IMG/VR virus record: IMGVR_UViG_3300008261_000807
Location: 1 to 21,139 of that record
Direction: 5' to 3' (one strand)
DNA from: a virus
DNA length: 21,139 nt
Below the pieces are notes generated by a model. The model made no database searches. It worked only from the letters and a program-made list of their open reading frames with translations, and was not told the origin of the DNA. The position numbers were made by a program, and so were the translations under genes. Positions within the stretch are counted from its first letter, which is position 1. Every line of letters begins with the position of its first letter. Shown here piece after piece: positions 2,789 through 15,890 of the stretch.

Positions 2789-5700
2789 TTGCTGTAATTC
2801 CGTTTGGTGGGAATTCTAATACACCGTTACCATCAAGGTCAGATCCAGTAATAAAGCTAGCATTAGCTTGCTTATTAAGCTTAGCAATTACACAGCTATC
2901 TGGGTGATCTGTTCTTGCCTGAGTACCTTCTTGAGCACGTACAACTTCAATTCTATAACCATTTGGATCAGAAGGATTGCTAACGTTTGTTAGACCAACA
3001 ACACGAACAATCTCACTATTAGCTTGATTTCTCAATCCAGTAATTTGACCACCACTTCCATCACCAACAGAATCTGGAGTAACAGCATTTCCTCTATCAA
3101 TTAGTAGAAGATCACCAATAGCAAAATCAGTTGTAGCTGGGGTGGAAATTGGTAGATAGAAGTTAGAACCAGCAGCATTTACTCCATTTACTTGGAAAGT
3201 AAGATCAGCAGCTCCTCCACCACCTAGTAAATTATCAGTAACAGTTAAGATATCATTATCACTATATCCACTACCAGCACTGACTAGTTCAATGCTAATT
3301 TCTCCAACAATTGTGATAGTAATATTGAAAGTAGCACCACTTCCAGTTCCTCCAGTTGGAGTAATGAAAGTATATGTTCCTGGCAGTCTATCTGGATCGA
3401 CAGCACCAACGTTATCAATTCCAGCAATTTGACCACCAGCAATTAAGAACTCTGGACCACCCCATAAAGTTTCACCAGCAGTATCAATTCTTCTTCCTAG
3501 AGTTTCATATCTATAGAAGTCGATGTTTGGATTTTCTAGACTACCAACAACGTGAGCTGCTGGAGTTGTGGAGAATCTTCCTCTTTGAATTTCAATGATA
3601 CCAGACTTAAGACCACCAGATAATCTTAATTCAGAATTAAGAATTGTGCTAGCATCAACATTAAGAGTGTTTCTGATGTAGGTATTACCACCAACAGAAC
3701 CAATTGACATCTTGGTAGCATTTGGACCAAAGTTGATTGTAGTTGTTTGGTCTCCATCAAATAGATTTAATGTTCTTGCTTGGGTGAACAATCTAGCAGT
3801 GCTTGTTCCTGGAGCATACTTAGTACCGATTTCAAGTTGACCAGCAATCTTAGTTTGGAATGTACCGATTGTTGTTTGGCTGTTTAAGTTTCCCCAAGCA
3901 CCACCAATAACGATATTTGCTTTGTTAGCAGCACTATCATTTACAGAAGCAATATCAACGCTAGCATCTAGTGAATTCTTGTGAATACCTAATCTAGTAA
4001 TTGTCGCTTTACCGCCAATCTCAATTACTTGAGTCGAAGCATTATTACCAATGTTGAGGTTTTGTGAACCATCGGCATTGTTACCAATGCTGAAAATTTC
4101 TCCATCACCAGCAATGTTTAGTACAGTAGCATTGTTGTTAATAAAATTAAATACATTATTTGTGGTATTAATATCACCACCATCAACACTGATGTCATCT
4201 TGAATTAACAGATTTCCTGTAATTCTACCATCACCAACTACAACTAAGTTTCTATCAAGATCAGTAGAAGCATTTATATTGATTGTGGTGTTGATACCAA
4301 ATCTTCCACCATCTCTATAAGTAGTTGTTGCTCTGCTTCCAGCTGGAATGTCAATAGTTGCAACTCTTAGTGTTGCTGCCTGATTTGGTGTGGCGCTGTT
4401 TCCACCAACTAAGAAAGCATTATCGAGTTTAGTAGTAGTCTTAGTTTGATTACCTGTATTTGATACAGTGATTGAAGTATTCGTACCACTGATAAAAGCA
4501 TCACCAACAACGTCAAGATTTGCTCTTGGAGTTGTTTGAGTTTGTACAAAACCATTTAGATAAGCGAGATCAGACGCTCTAGAAAGAGTGTTAATTCCTA
4601 GCTTATAATCGCCCCAGATTTCTGTTTCTGTTCTTAGTGCTTCCGCTCCAAGAACACCAGTTTCTTTCCAATTGGAGCGACCAACTTCCATCTTGGCTCC
4701 AGGTACTGTAGACCAAGTGTATAGAACTCCAACAGCAGGAGTTGCTACAATTTGAATCTCACACGATGTGCCATCTGGATCGAATCCATTAGAAATTACA
4801 GTCCAAATACCGTTAAGATTTGGGTTAGCGCCAAAATTAGTAATTCTTAGTTGAGAGCCAGCAACAACATTAACATTAGCATTTGTTATTCCAGGAGCCC
4901 ATTGAATTTCTAGTCTGATGCCATCACTTACTATGGTCTGAATGCTGGAATCAGCAATTTCAGTGTAATAGTTAGCATAAACCCAGCCAAGAGATCCAGA
5001 ACGTCCTACTTCACTACCTTTTAATAGAATATCACCAGGCTTTGGATTTTGAGTTGTGCTATAAGATACAATCTGTAAAGATCCAAACTTACCAGTTTGA
5101 TCTGGAGTGATATTTGATGGTCCTAAACCATTGGTGAAATGAGTTCTAATCGAATATCCTTGTCCAGCTACTCCAAGGAGTTGTCTTGGAGTGATACCAT
5201 ATACAGCAGCATTGATTCTGTTCTTACCTAGAGTAATATCACCATCATTAGATTGTGGGAACTGCTGTCTTCCAAGGGTAACATCATCTCCAAGATCAGC
5301 ATCAACAACGCTAAAGACTCTTAATGGCGTTCCTTCGTCAGCAGCTACACTAATTTCAACAGGATTATTAAAGTTGGCATTACCTTCTACGGTAATTCTA
5401 TCGTTGAAAGTAACAGGAGTATCAAATGTTGTTACGAGACCACCGAGATCATCTCCACCATCATCAGCAGATTCTTCGAGAACTGCTCTTTCCAAGAATG
5501 TTTCTTCGCCAGTAATAGCGTTGACTTTTCTGTTACCAATGTAAAGATCGCCATTAGAGTTTAGACCAGTATAGAATACGATACCACCATCTTCTCTTTT
5601 GGATTGAGCGTAGAAGTCTTGAACATCGGCAAGAACCACTTCCTGACGTAATGGGAAGCCAGTTGAGTAGTTACCAGGACCGAAGCCAAGATATTCGAAA

Positions 5701-8700
5701 GTATGGTTTCCAGAACGAGCAATCGATGGACGACGAAGTTCTACATAGAGTTTTCCTTCAGTTGGGAAATCAGAATCTCCAGCAATAGGAATATATCTAT
5801 CTTCGGAACCTGAAGTAGCATTACCTTCTTGTGCTTCAAGAATGTTTGATCCGCCAACAGGATTTAATGTAGGAGAAGTTAATTGTTCAGCTCTTATAAA
5901 ATTATATGTGTTTAGAGCAGGCTGTTGAATTAAGTCTTGTACTAATTCTTTGGTCTCACTGTTTTTAGCATCATTAATTGTAACCAAACCATGGATATAA
6001 TTATCAGCTGCCGAAATAGAAGCTGGAGGATCATTTAATACAGAATTAATTTGCTTGAACCATACAGGATCGTTCTTGTAATTTAATGGATATAGCTGAG
6101 AAATTGGCTGGGAGAACTTGAAGTTTCTGAAGTTTGTACCAACACCAGCTCCAGTTGGGAATGGAGAAATGTTGCCACGGAGGCAAGTTAGGTAGTAAAT
6201 ACCATCTTGTTGTCCAGCAATTCTTTCCTGAATAGTGTCAATATCGAAAATGTAGAAAGTATCTTCCAGATTACCTACATCACGAACTTCCTCAACTCTA
6301 TACTGATTATTAGCATCGTCAGTAATAATATCGCCAGGAACTAAAGTATAAACGTTAGCTCCTTCAATTCTGTAGAGGTAATCTCTTCTGTCTGACTTAT
6401 CTTTTCCGTTAGGATCACCAACACTATTTGGTTTAGATTGTAAATCAGCAAATACAGATCCTTGAGTAAATCTAGTATTGACAATATTATTGTACTTAAG
6501 TTCTCCAGTAATGTTTTTAAGAACTAAGTAATACTTGCCATTTTCTTCAAAATATCCTTGAATATAACCAGTTCCTCTAGAGAATCCATCCCAAGCTACT
6601 AAGTTAGAAGCTCCAGCACCGACATTGTTGACGCTGAACGTACCACCCTGAGGGAAGTTGACTTCAACTACACTAAAAATCTCATTTTTGAGACCTTCAT
6701 TAGTGATAGCATGATCAAAAGCTACTATTTCAAGGTATTCAATAATTTCATTTTCGCTGTCAATATCTTCAATTTTTCTAGCTGATTGAATAGAGAAAGC
6801 AATCTTACTCTGTGTTCTTTCGCTACCAACAACCTTTGGTGATAGATATGGATCGTAAGTTGGAGCAGAGATACCAAAATTTTCTAAGAGTTCGGTTTTT
6901 GTATAACCAATTCTTTCACCAATTTGCTCTGGATTATCAAATCTAGCAACAGATGGAGCGCCACCAATTGGCTTCAGAATAAACTTCTGAGGTACTAAAC
7001 GTCTCTTGTCGTCTGTACGAACTTTAAGAACGAAACCGTTTAGAGGATCTCTTACAGTTTCAAGATACTTAGGAATTACATAACGTAGTCTGTATACTCT
7101 ATCTTCTTGCTTTCTGCTATCTTTTAGTCTAGTAAACCATGTGTCAAGAGTTCTAATCTTGCCTGATCCTGGACCATAAGCAGCAATATCCTTAAATCTA
7201 TAAAGAATACTCTGTGTATTTGGGTTAGAAGAGGTTTCATCCTTGACTTGTAAGTACCACAAACCACTATCATTTAAGTTAGCTCCATTATTATCTACTG
7301 GAGCGACTTCAAATCTTAATGGGCTGTTACGCTTGTTAGCAAATACATAGAAGTTTTGACCACTGCCTGGAACGAAAGAAACTGAGTTTACACCAGCAAT
7401 AGCATCAGCATGTGTGGTGTGAATACTGAACTTTTTGGAAGTAACAAATCTGGCATAGAAATAAGTTTGGGTGTCAATAGTGCCAGCACCAGCAATTTCA
7501 GGAAGATCAGAACCAAGAATATCTTCGGCAATTCTGAAGAATACTAATTGAGGAGTTACAGAAGCACTAGGAATATCAAAGATGTGTGCTACATCAGTTT
7601 CGATTTCTCCAGCGCCAGCAATATTACATCTGTATTTGTGTAGATCATAAGTATCATCAAGAACATATCTTTGAACTTCAATTTCTACATCAGCATCTAC
7701 AGAATCTGTTTCTGGGGAGTAGATAAAGATACCAGCAGCAGCATTTTCTTTAGTAGCAGCAAGCATCAATTTGGTTTGATCGGAACCATCAAAATAAGTA
7801 GTGCCAGAGTAATCTTCTGGTTGAGTAAATCTACCAGGAGCAATTACATAATACTTGGTATTGGTGCTAAAACCTTTTGGTAGGCGAATAACTCTCTTAT
7901 CTGGATTAGTGTTTGCTTTTGCTTTAGGTACAAGTCTAACAGGAGTTCCAGTTTCAAATTGATGTGGGTTGGAAGTTCCATTTCCTGTGTTAATAGTGAA
8001 TAATGTTGCTCGCTTCGAAAGACCAGCAAAGTCAATATTTGGTTCTACCTTAGTTACAGAAGAAATAGTAGGAATTACTTTAGTTACACCAACAAGAGTT
8101 CCTGGAATTGTGGATGTTCCAATCGCTTGTGTAATAATAGCAGTTAAGCTTGTAATTGTAGTAGCAACGTCAGCACAAGCAGGAGACGAAGGATCTTCTA
8201 CAACAGTAGGATCAATAAATTGAGTTTTTGTTGAGCCAGTAATAGTAATTGGCTCATTTCTCATTGCTTGAATAGCAAGATCTCTAGCTTGTAAGAAGGC
8301 AAATACAGCTTGATCTTCTTCCCCTTCTACATGCTGACCACTAATGTAAATTTCGCCAGCTTCATAAACTTTATTGTTACCACCATACTTGACGTTGAAA
8401 GCAATTGCTTCCAATACATCAACAATATCATCAATACAATTCTGATTGCCACCAGGAACCTGGAATCCAGGGTAGTTGGTAAGCATTCTATCAACAGCAA
8501 CTTCAGCAATTAATTCTTTATTTCCTAAAATTAAATTGTGAGCATCAATTTCTCTGCCACCAAGAGGAGTTAGACCTTGATTTAGGATAACAAAAATATC
8601 ACTAAAATACTGAGAAATAGTTGAAGCAACGTTGGCACACTCTGGATAATTGGTATCTTGAATTAAGCTGTCATCTTTAGTCGGTTGAACAACAGACCAA

Positions 8701-10252: not shown

Positions 10253-12166
10253 TTACTTTAACACTATTCTTCTGGTATCTGATAGAGGTCCTACAATTCT
10301 ATTTTCTTGTACAAGAGCATCGAATTCGCCATCATTATCAATAGATGGCTGGAATTTAGCAAAAGCTCTACCAATCTTGGTGTAATAATCTGTAAGATCA
10401 TCACTATCAGCATAAGTCATGATAGTGATCTTATGGTGAGAATATTCTGGGATGGCTAGATTTACAGTGTTTCCTTTTTGGAAATATACTTTACCAACAC
10501 CAGCATTCTCGTCAAACAATGGAGAATTTGAAGAAAGATCACCATCTTTGATGGTAAACTGCCACAAATAGCAACCACCTGTTAGATTAAAAACAGATGT
10601 TCTTTGTTGAGTTCCGTCAGCAGGATCAGGAACATAAAGAGGGCGAACAATAGTTCTACGAAGGTCATAACCAATTAAAGAACAACCTCTGGGAACAATA
10701 GCGCCACCAGAAGCAGCGTTAAACTTGTAAAGAACGTTATCTGGGTTGCTGAGATCTAGAATAGAATTATCATTCCATTGCTCTAGAGCTTGCTCGTAAT
10801 TGAATACAGGGACATCGCCAGTAATTTGAACATTAGCTAGACTGTTTAGATTTCCAGCACTAACAACACCAGTTACAATAGAAACAAGAGTTTCGATTGT
10901 GTTTTGTACGTCAATACAGCTTAAAGCATTACCAGAAGGAAGAATTGGTTGATCTTCTTCGGTGCTGTTGGCAAAAGAAGGACCTGCTAGTAAAGTTAGA
11001 TCTTTAGAATAAAGCTGATTGGTTACAGCTTTTTTCATCATATCTTTAGCAGCACTAAAAGCTACTACAGATTGAGCTTCTTCTCCAATTAAACCATTGG
11101 CGATAGGATTGCCATTTTTATCAAAATAAGATCTAGCAGCTTGTACTGAATTGCTATTTCCTCCCGTTTTGAGGTCAGCAATTACAGCATCTACAATATA
11201 GCCAATATCACGCTGACAAATTGATTGACCAGGACCAGCTAAAGGTCCACTGGTTTCTGCTGGAAGACCAGCTAGAGAATTGGCAGTAATTCTATCAGTT
11301 ACTAATGTGGTAAGCGAAGTGATTGCCGATCTTACATTAGCACAAGAATTAATATTAGTATTTGAACCAACCAGAGAATCTGGTGTAATTGTTAAATCTT
11401 TGTAAGCTAACTGGTTTGTTACTGCTTCGTTCATTAAATCACGAGCAGCATTAAAAGCTTGAATTGACTGAGCTTGCTCACCTTCTAGAGTATTAGCTAG
11501 CCAAGCATTTCCAGCAGCATTAAAATAATTTTTGATAAATTTACGGGTGTACTTATTACCGCCACCAAGGAAAATATCAAGAGATACAGCGTCTACAAAA
11601 TAACCAATATCTCTCTTACACTTTTCATCACTTACAGGAACAACAAAACCAGGATTAAACGCTTGCATCGTAGCAAACGCTTCGTCAATAATAGCAGTTC
11701 TATTTTTCTGAATTAATCTGTAAGAATCAAAAAATCTTGAAAGGTCTGTAGTAATTTGATCTCCAGGAACTACCCAATCGGTGCCCCATACAGACTCATC
11801 ATATTGAATAGCAATTTCGCCAAATGCTCTATCAATAATTTCTTGTCTATTTGCTTCAATTAGGTTAGCGCCGTCAAGATATCTTGGTTCTGGGTTAGTA
11901 ACACCAACAACACCTGGGCGGTTATCGATATAGTGATTACCAGGCATCAACATGATGCTGAACTGGTCAAATCTATCGTTATTTCTTCCTGGTAGGTATG
12001 AATAACGTGCTACTTCAATAAAGGCTCTTTGAATTGTTTTAAATGGTCTTAGAGGAGAATTGCCTCTATTATCTAATTCGTCAGTGGCGTTAAAATCATC
12101 TGGCGAAACATATAGATATCTTCCAGTTTTACTTGAATAAAGGTTATCAAGTCTTGTAAGAGCCAT
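10253..12166 (-). CDS. Giant tail-fibre-like protein, N-terminal part (637 codons, ends at a frameshift)
   Basis: The start ATG at 12166 is preceded by an AGG about eleven bases upstream and, 40 bases away, by a T4-type late promoter. The N-terminus (MALTRLDNLYSSKTG, then YLYVSPDDFNATDELDNRG and PFKTIQRAFIEVARYS) looks like a conserved anchoring region of a cyanophage virion protein. Two related modules follow, starting at C163 (CKRDIGYFVDAV) and C297 (CQRDIGYIVDAV). Each has a GG-N motif, an A-x-Q-S-hydrophobic-x-AF-x-AA-D-hydrophobic-M helix and a second Cys about 90-110 residues on. The frame stops at TAA 10253-10255 just after RRIVLK, while an open frame with no stop continues in the -1 frame for 2,500 codons. 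It is most likely the 5' part of one gene with the downstream frame; virion adhesion is the inferred job. Confidence 0.85.
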   Translation of the reverse strand: MALTRLDNLYSSKTGRYLYVSPDDFNATDELDNRGNSPLRPFKTIQRAFIEVARYSYLPGRNNDRFDQFSIMLMPGNHYIDNRPGVVGVTNPEPRYLDGANLIEANRQEIIDRAFGEIAIQYDESVWGTDWVVPGDQITTDLSRFFDSYRLIQKNRTAIIDEAFATMQAFNPGFVVPVSDEKCKRDIGYFVDAVSLDIFLGGGNKYTRKFIKNYFNAAGNAWLANTLEGEQAQSIQAFNAARDLMNEAVTNQLAYKDLTITPDSLVGSNTNINSCANVRSAITSLTTLVTDRITANSLAGLPAETSGPLAGPGQSICQRDIGYIVDAVIADLKTGGNSNSVQAARSYFDKNGNPIANGLIGEEAQSVVAFSAAKDMMKKAVTNQLYSKDLTLLAGPSFANSTEEDQPILPSGNALSCIDVQNTIETLVSIVTGVVSAGNLNSLANVQITGDVPVFNYEQALEQWNDNSILDLSNPDNVLYKFNAASGGAIVPRGCSLIGYDLRRTIVRPLYVPDPADGTQQRTSVFNLTGGCYLWQFTIKDGDLSSNSPLFDENAGVGKVYFQKGNTVNLAIPEYSHHKITIMTYADSDDLTDYYTKIGRAFAKFQPSIDNDGEFDALVQENRIVGPLSDTRRIVLK

Positions 12167-12205: not shown

Positions 12206-12213
12206 TATTTATA
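12206..12213 (-). promoter_or_regulatory. T4-type late promoter for the giant fibre gene
   Basis: The minus strand reads TATAAATA, a perfect match to the late promoter used by T4-like phages with a gp55-type sigma factor. It lies 40 bases before the ATG of the fibre gene at 12166 and immediately after a hairpin terminator, which is the expected place for the start of a new late transcript. That it is used late is inferred from T4 knowledge. Confidence 0.7.
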
Positions 12214-13665: not shown

Positions 13666-13738
13666 AGCCCTCGACAAGACTTGAACTTGCGACATCAGCT
13701 TTACAAAAGCTGCGCTCTACCAGCTGAGCTACAAGGGC
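13666..13738 (-). tRNA. tRNA-Thr(TGT)
   Basis: The cloverleaf is complete: acceptor GCCCTTG/CGAGGGC (one wobble), D-arm GCTC-AGCTGGTA-GAGC, anticodon arm CAGCT-TTTGTAA-AGCTG with anticodon TGT (plus-strand 13703-13705), and T-arm GCAAG-TTCAAGT-CTTGT. The discriminator is T. It reads ACA codons. Its first ten bases are also the end of the cpeT frame: T8-A9-G10 is the TAG stop of that gene. Confidence 0.95.
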
Positions 13739-14186
13739 ATTCTAACAAATTCAAACCTACCATATTTAGAACCCCATAGCTGATGTTTATGTTCAGCACA
13801 GAATCCACGATCCATAACATAATAGTGAGTTGGTGTCAACTCGATTTCATTTTGGAGGTAGGTTTGACGACCCATCCAGTCTACCATACAATCACATCCT
13901 TGTATACCCCCCACAAATGAATTACCTTTTGGAGTTAAATATAATTTTCTTTATCGTTTAATTCATAATTATAGATACGGATCTGACCATTTTCTTCTTT
14001 TGGCTCAAGTACAAACTGACGATAAGGTTTGTTTAATTGATAATTATACGCTTGCTCACCGTAAATTAATCCGCTCCCTAAATTTACATGAGTCACTCTA
14101 ATCATAGCATATCTTGAAGGATATGTCATGGCTTGTATTTTATTTTCAAATTTTCCTTCAATTAATCTAAAAAATTCGTTAATCAT
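13729..14186 (-). pseudogene. cpeT: CpeT-like phycobiliprotein lyase, broken by a one-base frameshift
   Basis: The N-terminal frame (13935-14186, 83 codons) has the CpeT/CpcT signature: FFRLIEGKFENKIQAM, YAMIRVTHV, then YGEQAYNYQLNKPYRQFVL and GQIRIYNYEL. It stops at TAA 13935-13937. The second half of the family lies in the next frame: FVGGIQGCDCMVDW, then HYYVMDRGF and QLWGSKYGRFEFVR, ending at TAG 13729-13731. Adding one A to the A4 run at 13945-13948 joins the halves as NDKE-K-LYLTPKGN, about 152 residues, a normal cyanophage CpeT length. CpeT-type proteins attach phycoerythrobilin to phycoerythrin or assist that step, so a cyanobacterial host with phycobilisomes is implied. The break may be real decay, frameshifting or a sequence error. 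The stop codon lies inside tRNA-Thr. The ATG overlaps the upstream gene by eight bases. Confidence 0.85.
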
Positions 14187-15267: not shown

Positions 15268-15340
15268 CTCTGGTTGTCGGGATCGAACCGACCTGTCTTG
15301 CCTTATGAGGGCAGTGCTTTCGCCAGAGAGCTAAACCAGC
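15268..15340 (-). tRNA. tRNA-Met(CAT)
   Basis: The anticodon arm is CTGCC-CTCATAA-GGCAA with anticodon CAT (plus-strand 15305-15307). The T-arm GTCGG-TTCGATC-CCGAC is perfect and the D-arm is GCTC/AAGC. The acceptor pairs at six positions (CTGGTT/AACCAG); position 1-72 is a G-A mismatch and the discriminator would be G, which is unusual. A lysidine-modified Ile tRNA also has CAT and cannot be excluded, but a tRNA-Ile(TAT) already covers ATA nearby. T8-A9-G10 is the stop codon of the HNH gene. Confidence 0.85.
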
Positions 15341-15750
15341 GTTTCAAAAAACTCATTCCAACTATCTCCATAATGTAGTATATGATGACAGTTATGACAA
15401 AGAAGATCACATTTGTCAACTTCTTCTTTAATAGATTCCCATTTTCGATTGGCAAAAGATCTTCCATCAAGCTTTAATTCTTTTTTAGAAGGATCTCTGT
15501 GATGAAAGCATAAAGTTGCTGGTCTTTCTTCGCCACATTGCTGACACTTACCACCTTTGTATTGAAGAGCTTTCCATTTATTAAAATAAGCTCTTTGTTT
15601 TTGTTCGGTATAAGTGTTTCTATTCATAACAGATGGATCATTTCTATAACGCCACTTTTGACGGCAGGTTTCATCACAATAAAGTTTTGCTCTCCCACCT
15701 TTTCTTGAGTGTTGTGGAACTTCTTTTCCACATGCTTTACAGTTAATCAT
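15331..15750 (-). CDS. HNH endonuclease with N-terminal zinc finger, 139 aa
   Basis: An N-terminal Cys4 motif (C4-x2-C7 and C25-x3-C29) is followed by a basic linker and an HNH domain. The domain has a Cys4 knuckle C69-x2-C72 and C118-x2-C121, the FHHRDP motif with H83/H84 and D86, and the end LLCHNCHHILHYG that supplies the Asn (N120) and His residues of the betabeta-alpha-metal fold. This is the layout of free-standing phage HNH enzymes, often homing endonucleases that settle near tRNA genes. It is probably a selfish gene that cuts a related phage genome; the target is unknown. It starts 27 bases after a T4-type late promoter. It ends inside tRNA-Met, whose bases 8-10 are its TAG stop, giving the C-terminal residues FETLV. 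Confidence 0.85.
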   Translation of the reverse strand: MINCKACGKEVPQHSRKGGRAKLYCDETCRQKWRYRNDPSVMNRNTYTEQKQRAYFNKWKALQYKGGKCQQCGEERPATLCFHHRDPSKKELKLDGRSFANRKWESIKEEVDKCDLLCHNCHHILHYGDSWNEFFETLV

Positions 15751-15776
15751 TTGTATTATGAAGGACTACATACACC

Positions 15777-15784
15777 TATTTATA
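15777..15784 (-). promoter_or_regulatory. T4-type late promoter for the HNH gene
   Basis: The minus strand reads TATAAATA, a perfect match to the T4 late consensus, 27 bases before the ATG at 15750 and 17 bases after the 3' end of tRNA-Ile. The HNH gene, and tRNA-Met with it, may therefore be expressed late even though the island also holds host-type promoters. Confidence 0.7.
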
Positions 15785-15800
15785 TAGTAAATGTATGTAA

Positions 15801-15872
15801 TAGGAATACTGGGAATTGAACCCAGACTAAGCCCTTATAAGGAGCCCGCTCTAACCATTAAGCTATATTCCC
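15801..15872 (-). tRNA. tRNA-Ile(TAT)
   Basis: Cloverleaf: acceptor GGGAATA/TATTCCT with discriminator A, D-arm GCTT-AATGGTTA-GAGC, anticodon arm GGCTC-CTTATAA-GGGCT with anticodon TAT (plus-strand 15837-15839) and T-arm CTGGG-TTCAATT-CCCAG. It reads ATA, a codon that many bacteria read with a lysidine tRNA instead, so the phage brings its own solution. No CCA is encoded. It is the first gene of the island and has a sigma70-like promoter 20-50 bases upstream. Confidence 0.93.
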
Positions 15873-15890
15873 ATGAACAGATACCAATCT

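Follow-up and report, generated by a model that had tools for sequence, protein, structure and literature searches.

In compact genomes such as those of mitochondria, protein genes overlap with tRNA genes and the stop is supplied by the tRNA. Such overlaps resemble the cyanophage case described here in that tightly packed neighbours on the same strand are involved and the stop lies within the tRNA; the phage case differs in its use of the bacterial code, in ordinary RNase P processing and in the fixed position of the stop at tRNA nucleotides (nt) 8-10. In mycobacteriophage Fionnbharth, tRNA-Lys-TTT overlaps the 3' end of gene 37, and the C-terminus of the protein is unlike that of a tRNA-free relative (PMC10865867). 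While the cyanophage cpeT gene likewise has its 3' end overlapped by a phage tRNA, the Fionnbharth tRNA is antisense to gene 37, whose product is longer by 18 residues, whereas cpeT shares its strand with the tRNA, stops at nt 8-10 and has a product of normal length. T4 segB, a free-standing homing endonuclease gene within a tRNA cluster, has a late promoter and a hairpin upstream (PMC2988022). A second overlap in our sequence involves an HNH cassette of similar layout, with an endonuclease gene placed between two tRNAs and a late promoter and hairpin upstream. However, SegB is a GIY-YIG enzyme, its gene ends ahead of tRNA-Arg and its homing was shown experimentally, whereas the gene studied here is of the HNH type, overlaps tRNA-Met and is a putative homing gene on sequence grounds. 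The cpeT gene itself corresponds to T4-GC 338, carried by 12 of 16 cyanophage genomes, and the region near gp5 with its tRNAs has been named as a hot spot (PMC3037559). The sections of that account that deal with this gene do not mention an overlap with tRNA-Thr, and our literature searches, mainly of open-access papers, returned no account of a cpeT/tRNA-Thr overlap in cyanophages.

The window, by which we mean the whole stretch analysed, is a virus record of 21,139 bases from a T4-like cyanophage. Among named phages, those closest to it are S-PM2, S-CAM1, S-CAM3, S-CAM4 and Sf-FR1, joined by S-SRM01 in the case of the HNH gene. ARAGORN identified seven tRNA genes on the minus strand. Among these, tRNA-Thr(UGU) occupies positions 13666-13738 (minus strand; ARAGORN anticodon tgt), in agreement with the sequence and with acceptor stem pairing in relatives. 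Read on the minus strand, positions 13738-13729 are GCCCTTGTAG, with TAG (13731-13729) at nt 8-10 of the tRNA. The original prediction, that the cpeT frame stops at T8-A9-G10 of tRNA-Thr, was confirmed by ARAGORN and by the sequence; nt 1-7 of the tRNA (GCCCTTG) double as code for the last CpeT residues, M-P-L.

The end of the frame was thus correctly placed, but profile and alignment reveal that the frame is not a whole cpeT gene, representing only the C-terminal part. The stretch that ends in the tRNA (13729-13934, minus strand, stop included) matches positions 118-181 of the 181 in PF06206 (CpeT) with an E value of 9e-15, while the N-terminal part (PF06206 2-86) lies in a different frame at 13935-14186 on the same strand and ends with TAA at 13937-13935. 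Each half scores 55-56 bits against a cut-off of 21. When aligned with three loci that have an intact cpeT and are 80-83% identical at the DNA level (L172, L185 and L183), the window cpeT lacks 67 nt between the halves, with the junction at 13937-13938 (minus strand). Profile positions 87-117 are missing and the frame is shifted, leaving no continuous full-length CpeT frame in this contig. The frame-shifting deletion is seen in this contig only, and it may be either a real deletion or an assembly error. Since this contig carries a broken cpeT, the overlap can have no bearing on CpeT function in it.

The same arrangement is found in many relatives. A cpeT stop at nt 8-10 is also annotated in S-CAM1, S-CAM4 and Sf-FR1, and most of 80 IMG/VR cpeT loci have the gene end at nt 8-10 of tRNA-Thr. 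Among 61 distinct cyanophage CpeT sequences, 42 end at these nucleotides of tRNA-Thr and one at nt 8-10 of tRNA-Asp. In a tree of the 61 sequences the overlap state occurs in several deep clades, with at least six changes needed. A third clade, containing S-PM2, Syn1, Sf-CH3 and others, shows other arrangements: the S-PM2 stop falls at tRNA nt 6, and in Syn1, which has no tRNA-Thr, CpeT stops just ahead of tRNA-Leu. In this virus and in most cpeT-carrying relatives, cpeT is without a stop codon of its own, and the overlap is both real and old.

Several individual loci show variations on this arrangement. In L192, near position 6522, a tRNA-Asp lies in register between cpeT and tRNA-Thr, and the cpeT stop is again at nt 8-10; elsewhere in the clade of this locus, the place after cpeT is taken by tRNA-Thr. 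The body of the window tRNA-Thr differs strongly from that of L172, although the two loci are nearly identical at the end of cpeT and over the 30 nt downstream, which suggests that the tRNA body may have been swapped within the overlap. S-CAM1 (L003) has a further example 750 bp away from its cpeT overlap, at 3372-3381, where a gene for a 2OG-Fe(II) oxygenase takes its stop from nt 8-10 of tRNA-Ala.

The sequence of the CpeT C-terminus follows that of the tRNA. The 5' strand of the acceptor stem varies between loci (GCCTGAA, GCCTGTT, GCCAAAC, GCCCTTG and others), and this variation is matched by pairing changes in the 3' strand. The last CpeT residue changes along with the stem, being E, V, N, L, Q, K or S. 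This co-variation, observed together with the changing last residue, indicates that the tRNA sets the CpeT C-terminus. Beyond the final F of the conserved FxF, overlapped CpeT proteins have a tail of 5 residues, usually [KR]MPx following one residue, compared with 2-8 in CpeT proteins without overlap. Nothing has therefore been lost, and CpeT capped by the tRNA is of normal length; of the proposal that a tRNA trims or caps phage genes, the capping holds for CpeT and the trimming does not. Exceptional loci are informative about the triplet. In S-CAM3 (L004, 4099-4138) the frame is shifted, and the annotated CpeT has a tail, LAQLDRAAVL, that is translated from the D and anticodon arms of tRNA-Thr as far as nt 39. 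At the HNH loci L229 and L233, tRNA-Met has T8-A9-C10 and not G10, and the HNH frames continue to nt 22 and nt 37. Because frames run on in all three, T8-A9-G10 can be identified as the terminator. The tRNA has been lost from L156, where a trace of the run-on tail (LAQ) is kept at the CpeT end, and from L198, located inside the overlapping clade, where CpeT ends in VRQ.

We consider it very probable that the cpeT overlap is passive and inherited, the gene and tRNA having come to abut in the right frame and being held there by selection on the tRNA. Packing would place the frame of a gene onto a neighbouring tRNA, where one frame in three meets T8-A9-G10; the cpeT frame would accordingly cross the 5' end of tRNA-Thr and stop at the tRNA's own triplet. 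We infer a distant origin in one or a few events, in which cpeT and the tRNA came to abut in that one frame of three. As the triplet and the acceptor stem are under selection for the tRNA, the overlap would persist: selection on the tRNA bases and stem pairing would keep the stop and dictate the last CpeT residues (M-P-x), with a CpeT length neither below nor above that seen in tRNA-free relatives. Alternatively, the cpeT overlap may have lasted through large divergence because it is useful in itself. The HNH case would follow the same rule in the opposite direction, a cassette having come to lie between tRNA-Ile and tRNA-Met and taken over the tRNA-Met stop.

The frequency of such junctions was determined in a survey of tRNA-pattern scans of viral contigs combined with the cpeT and HNH loci. 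It comprised 2452 tRNAs with checked register, the scans selecting for encoded CCA and given T arms, and genes defined, under a GC limit, as ORFs of 80 codons or more (60 in the first pass), called independently of expression. Junctions were collapsed by gene family, isotype and position, yielding 306 within 60 nt. The triplet TAG at nt 8-10 had been presumed near-universal in tRNAs; it was found in only about half of the phage tRNAs (1242 of 2452, 51%), with T8 present in 90%. Overlap was seen at 84 of the 306 non-redundant junctions, and the stop position met most often is nt 8-10, with 29 cases. The genes concerned are many and unrelated, and involve tRNA-Pro, Asp, Lys, Gly, Asn, Arg, Leu, Phe, Met, Gln, Thr and Ala. 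That an adjoining tRNA recurrently offers a ready stop in one frame is borne out by these 29 of 84 overlapping junctions.

Under a random frame, 24.0 stops at nt 8-10 are expected across all loci compared with the 29 observed (z 1.5); for the tRNA-pattern loci alone the values are 16.7 and 22 (z 1.9), and an earlier pass over the first loci gave 22 observed with 18.3 expected. Any excess over frame chance is at most slight and non-significant, and a larger sample might bring it to significance. Overlaps of at least 5 nt account for approximately 22% of gene-tRNA pairs and 21% of gene-gene pairs in the tRNA-pattern loci, while overlaps of any length account for approximately 24% and 48%, respectively. 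The comparison with gene packing that had been suggested as a check on the recurrence therefore shows overlaps of at least 5 nt no commoner than between protein genes. With stops at the frequency of frame chance and an overlap rate that is not raised, passive capping explains the recurrence. An unfiltered count from cyanophage loci (140 of 179 overlaps at nt 8-10) was not used as evidence, because the same two gene families are counted many times. In a bacterial comparison covering 230 tRNAs, only 18 genes had their end within 60 nt of one, and for 3 the stop was at nt 8-10; these are few and some are probably spurious.

A second, unrelated gene in the window ends in the same manner, as had been predicted. 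An HNH endonuclease gene at 15331-15750 (minus strand) has its TAG, 15333-15331, at nt 8-10 of tRNA-Met(CAU), which ARAGORN places at 15340-15267 on the same strand; the last HNH residues, L-V, correspond to tRNA-Met nt 2-7. The family assignment follows from the sets of overlapping genes, including the family of the window HNH protein, that match PHROG HNH families, and an annotated HNH endonuclease of S-SRM01 is 88% identical to the window protein; the window protein alone gave no Pfam match at 0.001. A third gene beside a window tRNA, 13009-12359, ends 2-3 nt short of tRNA-Asn.

Comparison of related loci provides both occupied and empty versions of the HNH site. At 32 loci including the window, an HNH cassette of approximately 455-620 nt is located between tRNA-Ile and tRNA-Met. 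At 12 others (S-PM2 and eleven more) the two tRNAs are 0-4 nt apart. In the window, where the cassette covers 15331-15799, tRNA-Ile(UAU) lies at 15800-15873 (minus strand; ARAGORN). The adjacent stretch of the cassette, 15767-15799 (minus strand), holds TATAAATA flanked by the arms of an inverted repeat, TACATACA...TGTATGTA, which most HNH cassettes have conserved at their left end. The cassette usually starts with TACATACA...TATAAATAGGTGTATGTA, placing a T4-like late promoter inside the inverted repeat. In the window TATAAATA is at 15777-15784 (minus strand), 27 nt upstream of the HNH start, as a match to the T4-type late promoter consensus. Matches to this consensus are not above chance in number, and it is position and conservation that set TATAAATA apart. 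A second TATAAATA at 12206-12213, located 40 nt upstream of the tail gene start at 12166, is consistent with a late promoter.

The empty sites, with only 0-4 nt between the tRNAs, indicate that the gene was inserted beside the tRNA rather than the tRNA into the gene. The direction originally proposed, in which tRNAs insert into or next to genes, is thus reversed for HNH. The cassette is probably mobile. It may be that mobile endonucleases make such overlaps, HNH genes homing to tRNA clusters and preferentially ending inside a tRNA, a proposal that we judge to be evenly balanced. In addition to the occupied and empty sites, HNH-like genes make up 9 of 59 overlapping neighbours compared with 8 of 185 non-overlapping ones in the tRNA-pattern loci (odds ratio 4.0, p 0.008); this enrichment was however noticed post hoc, and when the fresh set is taken by itself the figures are 3 of 20 versus 2 of 63 (p 0.09). 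In Henu11, FSL SP-107 and Sham, HNH relatives abut a tRNA or lie within one. T4 segB, positioned at tRNA-Arg/tRNA-Ile, has the tRNA intergenic region as its target (PMC2988022), but it does not overlap the tRNA-Arg that follows. Homing would also leave cpeT unexplained, as it is not an endonuclease gene. Regarding the individual relatives, the HNH gene of FSL SP-107 (L725, 801-1205) shares 23 nt with the 5' end of tRNA-Leu; wV8 (L724) has an HNH gene of the same length, but there tRNA-Leu starts about 360 nt farther away, beyond an intervening ORF.

Passive capping of an abutting gene also has to be weighed against repeated tRNA insertion, in which phage genes are trimmed or capped by tRNA genes arriving within them or at their side, making the nt 8-10 stop a recurrent mode of evolution. 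In favour of insertion, unrelated genes do stop at nt 8-10 of many tRNA isotypes, and the tRNA-Asp of L192 sits in register between cpeT and tRNA-Thr. We nevertheless regard this as improbable, since CpeT is not shorter than in relatives without the tRNA, nt 8-10 stops occur at the frequency of frame chance, and the empty HNH sites show the gene arriving and not the tRNA, which largely refutes insertion for HNH. Trimming by tRNA insertion was rejected for both genes, on C-terminus lengths for CpeT and on the empty sites for HNH.

A regulatory role for the overlap appears more doubtful still. RNase P processing at nt 1 of tRNA-Thr would leave a cpeT mRNA without a stop, so that, on the anatomy of the locus, one transcript could not give both products; each transcript would yield CpeT or tRNA-Thr, and the overlap would serve as a switch or set the ratio. 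The leftover nonstop mRNA would then be cleared by host tmRNA. The predicted cut does split the M codon as AT|G, ahead of the stop, and the overlap is kept in most CpeT lineages. Against this, the overlap has been changed without obvious consequence in the close relatives S-PM2 (nt 6), S-CAM3 (nt 39) and, through loss of the tRNA, L156 and L198, and the residues at the C-terminus change as the tRNA stem does. We therefore think such coupling very unlikely, and the passive overlap probably has no regulatory role. If coupling were true, the phage would tie the output of a phycobilisome-related protein to the supply of tRNA-Thr.

Finally, that the frame is a dead cpeT remnant or an assembly error, its end in the tRNA being meaningless here, draws on the deletion peculiar to this contig and is refuted as an explanation of the overlap, with hardly any probability left to it, because the intact cpeT genes of relatives stop at the same tRNA position and the overlap was thus not produced by the 67-nt deletion.

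The findings bear on how such regions are annotated and how they evolve. Gene callers that forbid gene-tRNA overlap truncate or drop genes of this kind. The tRNA-Ile/tRNA-Met junction offers a clean occupied and empty site for the HNH cassette, making homing to cyanophage tRNA clusters testable. In these phages, a structural constraint of the tRNA (U8, position 9 and G10) doubles as the stop of a packed neighbour, and has been fixed in this function over long evolution.
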